From Methanomicrobia archaeon (GTDB taxonomy: Archaea; Methanobacteriota_B; Thermococci; Methanofastidiosales; NM3), in assembly GCA_030603445.1 (NCBI GenBank), contig JAUVXU010000006.1:1-64000 (forward strand): DNA of 64,000 nucleotides, written 5' to 3'. A program made the translations under genes and the position numbers. Below the pieces are notes generated by a model that did no database searches, was not told the DNA's origin, and saw nothing but the letters and a program-made list of their open reading frames with translations. Shown one piece after another: positions 1,814 to 35,400 of this stretch (the stretch's first letter is position 1; every line of letters starts with the position of its first letter).

Positions 1814-1821
1814 TTTATATA
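1814..1821 (+). promoter_or_regulatory. TATA box (TTTATATA) for a transcript starting near 1843
   Basis: TTTATATA centred about 25 nt upstream of the first base of the long closing helix of the ncRNA candidate. Confidence 0.5.
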
Positions 1822-1842: not shown

Positions 1843-2005
1843 TGCTGCTTGGCAGCCTTGTACCGTATGGGTCCTCCGGTGATTTAGCCTAGGCCTGATG
1901 TGAACCGGCAGACAACCCCGGTATAGGACAGCCCGCCACGAGAGTTATCCGATGGAGAGAGGATGCCCAAACAATGAATCTTGGATGTTAGTGTGTCGGG
2001 CAACA
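1843..2005 (+). ncRNA. Unassigned structured RNA candidate (stable ncRNA or 5' leader)
   Basis: GC-rich island in an AT-rich intergenic region. Closing helix TGCTGCTTGGCA (1843-1854)/TGTCGGGCAACA (1994-2005), 11 of 12 pairs with G-U. Internal helices TACCG/CGGTA, CCGGT/ACCGG and TATCC/GGATG. Confidence 0.5.
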
Positions 2006-2022: not shown

Positions 2023-2307
2023 ATGTTTGAAGATGCAATTATCGAATCAAAAGAGGGCATTTACCTTAACATTGAGGTTGTGCCTAATTCGAAGAACACA
2101 GGGATAGCTTGGGATCCTTGGAGAAAGCGCGTCAAGCTAAAGCTTAAAGCAAAACCACAAAATGGAAAGGCGAATGAGGAAATAATTAATTTATTTGGAA
2201 ATTTATGTCAAACGAAGATATCTTCTGGTATCCATAGCAGAGAAAAAACTCTTTTCATGCCTTCTGACAAGAAGATTGTTATTTCATTTTTAGAATCGTT
2301 AATTTAG
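2023..2307 (+). CDS. DUF167 (YggU) family protein
   Basis: EVVPNSKNTGI...VKLKLKAKPQNGKANEEIINLF is the DUF167 pattern. Confidence 0.85.
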   Translation: MFEDAIIESKEGIYLNIEVVPNSKNTGIAWDPWRKRVKLKLKAKPQNGKANEEIINLFGNLCQTKISSGIHSREKTLFMPSDKKIVISFLESLI

Positions 2308-2507: not shown

Positions 2508-3929
2508 TTGCGACTTATTGACCAGGGGGTGTACGTTATTAAGTACATTGCTAAATCAAAAAAGAATTCAGAATCAAAAGTTATCCAAACTCAAGAAAAA
2601 GAGAAAAAGATTGATGTTACTCCAAAAAATGAAATAGGGACTACAAAATACATAATCCAAGCATCAATAGATGCATCAGGGATTGTAGATCGTCCAGATG
2701 TTGTAGGAGCTATTTTTGGTCAGACCGAGGGATTACTTGGCGACGATCTTGACTTACGCGAGCTTCAGAAAACGGGCCGCGTTGGGCGAATACGTGTGAG
2801 CGTTTCTTCGAAAGGCGGGAAGTCACATGGAACTATTTCTATCCCATCTTCCCTTGACAAGATAGAGACAGCGGTTTTGGCTGCATCTCTTGAGACTATA
2901 GATCGCGTGGGTCCATGTGAAGCCAAAATGTCCGTCGATAAGATCGAGGACGTTCGTTCTTCCAAAAGGGTCTATGTGGTCGACCGTGCTAAGGATCTTC
3001 TCAAGGATATGATGGATTTAGATGTTCCAGAAACCCAGGAGCTTACAGAAGAGGTGAAAAGGGCTGTTAGAGTGAGGCAAATTACTAAGTATGGAACTGA
3101 AAGCCTTCCTGCTGGCCCAAACATCGCTGATTCGGATGCCATAATAGTTTGTGAAGGGCGCGCTGATGTTCTAAACCTTTTGAAGTATGGGATCAAGAAT
3201 GCTATAGCAGTGGAGGGGACATCAGTCCCAAAATCTATTGCAAAACTCTCTCGTGAAAAGACTGTTACAGCGTTTGTAGATGGCGATAGAGGGGGAGACC
3301 TCATACTTCGCGAGCTTATGGAAGTTGGTGAAATAGATTATTTTGCTCGTGCACCAGCCGGAAAAGAAGTAGAAGATCTTACCCGAAAGGAAGTTTTCAA
3401 GTCATTGCGAAACAAAGTCACTGCTGAACAGGCACTTAATGAGATATTTGAGCGCTCGGAAATATCCAGAGAAAATGGAGATAAGGGGGCAGAGGAACAA
3501 CAACAGCTTCCTGTACCTGCGAGTAAACCTCAACGAAGGACAGAAAAGAGTAAGACCGAACCTTCTAAAAAACGTCCCAAGCAACAAACTAAGAAGCAGG
3601 TCCAAGATGAAAGTCCGGAGCTGGAACAGTTTAAGAAGATCATAGAAAAGCTTCCAGGAACTCTTGATGCATACATCCTCGATGAAGATAAAAACATCAA
3701 GTTGAAGGTATCTGTTCGTGACTTAGTGGATGCAATGCGCTACACTGAAGATGTTTATGCAGTGGTGTTTGATGGCGTCATAACACAACGGCTTGTTGAT
3801 ATAGCTGGCGAACGTAACGTGCATTATTTGGTAGGCGTGAAAACCGGAAACATAACAAAGAAGCCATTGCACCTTAAAGTCTTATCATTCCAGGATATTA
3901 TGAAAGAATGGCAGAGTGAAGAGGAATAA
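2508..3929 (+). CDS. dnaG: Archaeal DnaG-type primase
   Basis: TKYIIQASIDASGIVDRPDVVGAIFGQTEGLLGDDLDLRELQKTGRVGRI and TOPRIM segment DAIIVCEGRADVLNLLKYG; TTG start, exact start uncertain. Confidence 0.92.
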   Translation: MRLIDQGVYVIKYIAKSKKNSESKVIQTQEKEKKIDVTPKNEIGTTKYIIQASIDASGIVDRPDVVGAIFGQTEGLLGDDLDLRELQKTGRVGRIRVSVSSKGGKSHGTISIPSSLDKIETAVLAASLETIDRVGPCEAKMSVDKIEDVRSSKRVYVVDRAKDLLKDMMDLDVPETQELTEEVKRAVRVRQITKYGTESLPAGPNIADSDAIIVCEGRADVLNLLKYGIKNAIAVEGTSVPKSIAKLSREKTVTAFVDGDRGGDLILRELMEVGEIDYFARAPAGKEVEDLTRKEVFKSLRNKVTAEQALNEIFERSEISRENGDKGAEEQQQLPVPASKPQRRTEKSKTEPSKKRPKQQTKKQVQDESPELEQFKKIIEKLPGTLDAYILDEDKNIKLKVSVRDLVDAMRYTEDVYAVVFDGVITQRLVDIAGERNVHYLVGVKTGNITKKPLHLKVLSFQDIMKEWQSEEE

Positions 3930-4566: not shown

Positions 4567-4692
4567 GCCGGGGTGGCTTAGTTTGGTTATAGCGCTCGAC
4601 TCATAAGTATTATTGATATTGGATTCATGCTTAAGAGACAAGTCAAAAGCTGAGAAATCGAGAGGCCGCGGGTTCAAGTCCCGCCCCCGGCA
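4567..4692 (+). tRNA. tRNA-Met(CAU), elongator type, with 51-nt intron (4606-4656)
   Basis: Acceptor GCCGGGG/CCCCGGC, T-arm GCGGGTTCAAGTCCCGC, anticodon stem CTCGA/TCGAG, anticodon CAT at 4602-4604, BHB central helix CUCA/UGAG with 3-nt bulges UAA and AAA; A73, no encoded CCA. Confidence 0.9.
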
Positions 4693-35287: not shown

Positions 35288-35400
35288 TGGCGCCGAGGTA
35301 GGGATTTGAACCCTAGTTGTGCAAGGCACAATCAGATTTCCCGTCAGCTACTATTTGGATCTCGAGTCTGACGCGTTTGACCAAGCTCCGCAACCTCGGC
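35288..35400 (-). tRNA. tRNA-Ser(CGA) with 23-nt intron (35338-35360) and encoded CCA (35288-35290)
   Basis: Minus strand: acceptor GCCGAGG/CCTCGGC, G73, CCA, T-arm TAGGGTTCAAATCCCTA, 6-bp variable arm TTGTGC/GCACAA, anticodon stem TCAGA/TCTGA, BHB central helix CUCG/CGGG with bulges AGA and AAA. Confidence 0.88.

Follow-up and report, generated by a model that had tools for sequence, protein, structure and literature searches.

A divergent two-hairpin box H/ACA RNA gene linked to dnaG in a Methanofastidiosales archaeon, with helix 69 of 23S rRNA as its probable target

In a 64,000-nucleotide (nt) stretch of a Methanomicrobia archaeon genome (order Methanofastidiosales; GenBank assembly GCA_030603445.1, contig JAUVXU010000006.1, positions 1 to 64,000; hereafter, the window), we analyzed a region at positions 1843 to 2005 that had been predicted from the DNA letters to encode an unassigned structured RNA. 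The region is a real, conserved RNA gene whose core consists of two tandem box H/ACA hairpins, hairpin A (~1856-1930) and hairpin B (1931-2005). We consider it highly likely that the product is a two-hairpin box H/ACA guide RNA in which hairpin B would pair with helix 69 of 23S ribosomal RNA (rRNA), an intersubunit bridge, and would place U1915 (Escherichia coli numbering throughout) in the active site of Cbf5. An unannotated RNA gene that Rfam missed can thus be assigned to a kind of RNA that is already known, and the unexpected part is the deep reach of its pairing with dnaG across archaea.

Structure of the RNA gene and its relation to HgcG

In a DNA search of 61 relatives, four genomes of the host family proved to carry the RNA (80-88% identity), and the Candidatus Methanofastidiosum family was found to share its 3' half (77-81% identity). 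The carriers identified by an exact-pattern scan across species genomes were Methanofastidiosia metagenome-assembled genomes, isolate NM3, and one Woesearchaeota metagenome-assembled genome. Both hairpins, which lie on the plus strand, have a lower stem, an asymmetric internal loop and an upper stem that ends in a kink-turn (K-turn) pattern, with ACA following the lower stem directly or after one base; lower stem, guide pocket, K-turn and ACA is the order of features in archaeal box H/ACA RNAs (PMC4652768, PMC7991803). In hairpin A, which was delimited by covariation in five sequences, a pocket scan and its alignment position (PMC2584109), these are a lower stem at ~1857-1865/1919-1927, a pocket at 1866-1873 and 1912-1918, an upper stem at 1874-1879/1905-1911, the K-turn, and ACA at 1928-1930. 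Hairpin B, which scored 102.6 bits with R1, a covariance model of this hairpin built from six sequences, was also delimited by covariation and by a pocket scan with controls. It has a lower stem at 1931-1939/1992-2001, a 5' guide (GAGAGTTA, 1940-1947) and a 3' guide (GTTAG, 1987-1991), an upper stem at 1948-1953/1978-1985, a K-turn at 1954-1956/1975-1977, and ACA at 2003-2005. Judged by sequence, the K-turn follows a GA / NNU-GA pattern in both hairpins, and its AUGA is nearly invariant in 72 hairpin B sequences. The GA stem has nine nucleotides on its 5' strand and ten on its 3' strand, with one mismatch (about 10 base pairs are expected). The ACA box deviates in some distant relatives, e.g., CCA in Woesearchaeota locus L031.

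The evidence for this structure comes from relatives and not from folding energy. Among the 72 hairpin B sequences, 83.7% of cells were paired and 15 of the 18 pairs had changed on both sides, giving a covariation score of 0.374, relative to 0.159 ± 0.008 for shuffled alignments and at most 0.111 with slid partners. Because these sequences were collected with R1 and fitted to it, the alignment leans towards structure, although its score clears the slid controls by a wide margin. For hairpin A, with only five sequences, the score was 0.280 versus 0.173 ± 0.042 for shuffled alignments, and four pairs carried double changes. The minimum free energy was unremarkable (z = -1.33; 20 of 200 shuffles folded equally well), and folding energy was set aside as nonsignificant. 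In family f3 (L054:1506-1626 and L136), hairpin B carries a long apical insertion and measures 121 nt rather than 75.

These comparisons revise the outline of the RNA. The original prediction had closed the region with a helix pairing 1843-1854 with 1994-2005. In the window, 11 of its 12 positions pair (three as G-U), whereas relatives keep 10, 6, 9 and 9 of 12, and the helix is incompatible with the conserved stems. The real core spans ~1856-2005 and is preceded by a short 5' hairpin, GCTGC-TTG-GCAGC (1844-1856, plus strand), found in the fold of the RNA and in the consensus fold of five family members; its last base is also counted in the stretch given for the next stem. It is probable that this hairpin marks the transcript start. 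The setting of the gene was as predicted: it forms a G+C-rich island (54-58%, versus 31-41% in the flanks) between divergent genes, and a TATA box (TTTATATA, 1814-1821, plus strand) lies at archaeal promoter spacing, ~23 nt 5' of the first hairpin base at 1844. TATA-like boxes occupy the equivalent place in the aligned relatives.

Rfam recognized no known RNA at this locus. At gathering score, the window contained no match apart from two transfer RNAs (tRNAs), and at E ≤ 10 only chance-level matches were obtained at the RNA locus. The earlier failure to match the element to tRNA, signal recognition particle (SRP) RNA or RNase P RNA was consistent with this result; RNase P RNA and SRP RNA gave separate strong matches elsewhere in the same genome. 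A cobalamin riboswitch-like appearance of the 5' half was also considered and discarded, because even a threshold of E ≤ 10 yielded nothing in Rfam to support it. HgcG (RF00064) likewise gave no match at the window locus. In Methanofastidiosum, its match (48.9 bits, E = 1.3e-12) coincided exactly with the locus of the homolog, and the model scored 62.7 bits in family f2 and 35.3 bits in family f3, against a gathering cut-off of 77.

By alignment position, hairpin A is homologous to motif II of HgcG/Pf7 and to HP1 of Haloferax (PMC2584109), and hairpin B is homologous to HgcG/Pf7 motif III and to Haloferax HP2. Motif I is kept in Thermococcus, Methanofastidiosum (family f4), f2 and f3 and is missing from the window RNA, which thus corresponds to motifs II and III only. 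In the four groups that keep it, the motif I pocket ranks a peptidyl-transferase uridine first, and it fits by sequence the published Pab40.1 target, L2588 of Pyrococcus abyssi (PMC4652768). The window RNA is therefore an archaeal H/ACA guide and a homolog of HgcG motifs II-III, without being a member of RF00064. It shares with HgcG/Pab40/Pf7 of Thermococcales a motif III pocket for U1915 (P. abyssi L2016; PMC4652768), a matching K-turn, a GUUA 3' guide and ACA, but it has two motifs rather than three, has other flanking genes, and falls below the Rfam cut-off. Haloferax HP1 and HP2 (Hvo1, Hvo2) also comprise two hairpins in the same order with motif I absent (PMC2584109, PMC4652768); compared with their published description, the window RNA differs in that its hairpins are adjacent. 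Archaeoglobus Afu4 motif 3 has been reported as a relative of Pa40.3 that has the equivalent site, L1970, as its target (PMC4652768). In eukaryotes, snR191 and U19 are likewise H/ACA guides for two equivalent helix 69 positions (PMC2584109), although eukaryotic two-hairpin H/ACA small nucleolar RNAs, unlike the window RNA, have no K-turn (PMC7991803).

The suggestion that the region might specify a new stable noncoding RNA thus stands insofar as the RNA is stable, structured and equipped with a promoter. That it belongs to a new class with no relation to known guides, which the missing Rfam match might imply, is scarcely credible given the HgcG similarity of the Methanofastidiosum homolog, the H/ACA anatomy and the known target; it is best described as a divergent box H/ACA guide.

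Predicted targets in 23S rRNA

The pocket is the most conserved part of hairpin B (GAGAGUU ... GUUAG). When pockets were scanned against ~2.6 kb of 23S rRNA from Methanofastidiosum and from one Thermococcaceae genome, U1915 ranked first for the host family, Methanofastidiosum, family f3, Woesearchaeota L031 and Thermococcus, and family f2 ranked U1917 first. In the 23S rRNA of Methanofastidiosum, the pocket GAGAGUUA ... GUUAG pairs with helix 69 as UAAC-U1915-A-UAACUCUC. Of 500 shuffled pockets, 6 reached an equal score somewhere in 23S rRNA, and none did so at U1915/U1917. Guide and target also differ together, in that Thermococcus combines UAACCCC in its 23S rRNA with the pocket GGGUUA, and Methanofastidiosum combines UAACUCUC with GAGAGUUA; the pocket of the window RNA scored 28 on Methanofastidiosum 23S rRNA and 18 on that of Thermococcus. 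Pab40/Pf7 forms pseudouridine in vitro at the equivalent of Haloarcula marismortui 1956, which is E. coli 1915 (PMC2584109). Judging from complementarity, the target of hairpin B is very probably U1915, or alternatively U1917.

A shifted pairing (GAGAGU ... UAGU) would suit U1917, and the same shift has been proposed for Haloferax, whose HP2 is predicted to serve 1915 and 1917 by alternative pairings and whose HP1 is predicted to serve 2586 (PMC4652768, PMC2584109). We initially favored U1917 as the sole target of hairpin B but demoted it, since GUUA and GAGAGUUA fit U1915 better and the Thermococcales lack UAGU. Hairpin A probably guides modification of a uridine near the peptidyl-transferase center, with pocket complementarity pointing to U2586 or, in the host family, to U2554/U2555.

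Several observations weigh against these assignments. The 23S rRNA was not found in the host assembly or in the assemblies of four family relatives, which is why targets were tested on 23S rRNA from other families. When pockets were first scanned with a closing pair as a requirement, U1915 was not ranked for the window sequence and no consistent target emerged for the host family; U1915 was ranked once this requirement was relaxed. The upper stem of hairpin B also carries a mismatch or bulge, and if only two target bases stay unpaired, U1915 implies 16-17 nt between the upper stem and ACA, a spacing at the limit of the usual 14-16 or beyond it. The three-unpaired-base geometry proposed for Haloferax gives 16 nt, and overall the distance from the pocket-closing pair to ACA is 14-17 nt, depending on the pair chosen and the uridine targeted. 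Finally, the hairpin A candidates are split: U2586 ranked first for Thermococcus and for one of the Methanofastidiosum copies but came third or fourth for the host family, behind the A-loop site U2554/U2555.

The host genome encodes Cbf5 (432.8 bits) and Nop10 (73.3 bits), as do the relatives tested, including the Woesearchaeota metagenome-assembled genome, and Gar1 and L7Ae are expected in archaea. With these proteins, the RNA could act as follows. Transcription would be driven by the TATA box at 1814-1821 and would probably run on into the downstream DUF167 gene, and bound proteins would set the ends of the RNA. In the assembled particle, the K-turns would be occupied by L7Ae, and the lower stems and ACA boxes by Cbf5 together with Nop10 and Gar1. 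Hairpin B would then pair through its pocket with helix 69 of the host and position U1915 for conversion to pseudouridine by Cbf5; the shifted pairing could place U1917 likewise.

Distribution in archaea and linkage to dnaG

Genomes from two archaeal phyla were sampled with R1. In a Woesearchaeota-type (DPANN-type) phylum, 164 of 279 genomes had a match, almost always just one each; in the host's phylum, 18 of 115 did, all of them in the host's order. No R1 match was obtained in ~94 Thermococcaceae genomes, whose copies have diverged too far to pass the strict filters (Pyrococcus L046 scored 29 bits when searched alone); this silence also serves as a check that R1 does not match at random. Rfam reported nothing at the loci tested in the DPANN-type phylum. 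The frequency of the counterpart in that phylum suggests that guided pseudouridylation of helix 69 may be widespread in archaea with tiny genomes.

In all 60 Woesearchaeota-type loci that were inspected, which spanned R1 scores from 83 down to 31.6 bits, dnaG lay downstream on the same strand at a distance of 107-366 nt. When 14 dnaG loci were taken from genomes of this phylum without a first-pass match, 11 had a weaker R1 match, and the weaker matches seen in the displayed dnaG-upstream stretches lay just upstream of dnaG. The order in the host family is guide-DUF167-dnaG, again on one strand. This association is too regular for chance, and it could have arisen by shared inheritance or by lateral transfer. 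We found no description of it in the open-licence literature searched. DnaG is an rRNA-binding protein that allows the exosome to add tails to rRNA (PMC4227792), which makes a functional link between guide and dnaG plausible; the gene order provides a testable connection between rRNA modification and the exosome.

In the window, the DUF167 gene (2023-2307, plus strand) is preceded by a ribosome-binding site, AAGGTG, at 2012-2017, and the gene order is kept in the family. Since the ribosome-binding site begins 6 nt 3' of the ACA box, the guide RNA and DUF167 are probably co-transcribed. The dnaG reading frame is listed at 2508-3929 (plus strand) and is supported by homologs; its true start probably lies downstream of the listed TTG. 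The gap between DUF167 and dnaG contains a promoter-like sequence at 2329-2351 (ACCACAAAGTTAATAAATGG in the window, CCAAAAAGTTAATAAATGG in one relative), which is conserved in four members of the family, a sign that dnaG may also be served by a separate promoter.

The original prediction had raised the alternative that the RNA is a leader controlling DUF167 and dnaG. The proximity of the ribosome-binding site to ACA and the position upstream on the same strand, both in the host family and before dnaG in the inspected loci of the other phylum, agree with this idea and are the part of it that survives. As the primary role of the RNA, however, a cis-acting leader (riboswitch or attenuator) is very improbable. 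The homolog lies away from dnaG in four related families (Methanofastidiosum; f2 and f3, which belong to the same order; and Thermococcaceae), so leader function is not a conserved role; moreover, the conserved single-stranded bases fit rRNA, and the RNA showed no conserved overlap with either a ribosome-binding site or a terminator.

A dual role would add to guide function rather than replace it: processing of the guide from a shared transcript would also tune dnaG, linking rRNA modification with RNA quality control. The retention of the linkage across two distant archaeal groups, the rRNA binding and tailing activity of DnaG, an exosome subunit (PMC4227792), and a second conserved element between guide and dnaG all speak for such a role, whereas the linkage is absent in the four related families and, in the host family, a promoter-like CCAAAAAGTTAATAAATGG that follows DUF167 seems to serve dnaG separately. 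On balance, we give this extension of the guide assignment a small chance.

The second conserved element was found between guide and dnaG in the Woesearchaeota-type phylum and includes stems such as AGAACAAG...CUUGUUCU. In the 60 guide-dnaG gaps, UUCAY (TTCAY in DNA) occurred 139 times, relative to 49 ± 7 expected, and UUGUUCU occurred 34 times, relative to 1 expected; the stem encloses the repeated TTCAY motifs (dnaG-upstream gaps of L060-L119, L138 and L141). A similar stem precedes dnaG in the window at ~2411-2514 (GTCGTAAG/CTTGCGAC, compared with AGAACAAG/CTTGTTCT in the other phylum), and another precedes dnaG in family f3, with no guide nearby. The element has no counterpart in Rfam and may be a dnaG leader. 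Speculatively, and with a modest chance of being right, the helix 69 guide and dnaG could form an ancient archaeal transcription unit in which production of the guide is coupled to that of the exosome subunit DnaG, with this second, undescribed leader, marked by UUCAY repeats and a stem ending in CUUGUUCU, controlling dnaG.

Other features of the window

The divergent neighbor of the guide RNA gene is a nucleotidyltransferase-like open reading frame on the minus strand (422-1843). Its listed start overlaps the TATA box of the guide RNA gene; comparison with relatives suggests a true start near 1792 (MRKVGMGVDFDPVHKGH). The two tRNA genes in the window, at 4567-4692 (plus strand) and 35291-35400 (minus strand), were found by Rfam and missed by ARAGORN; at 126 and 110 nt, they are long enough to contain introns.
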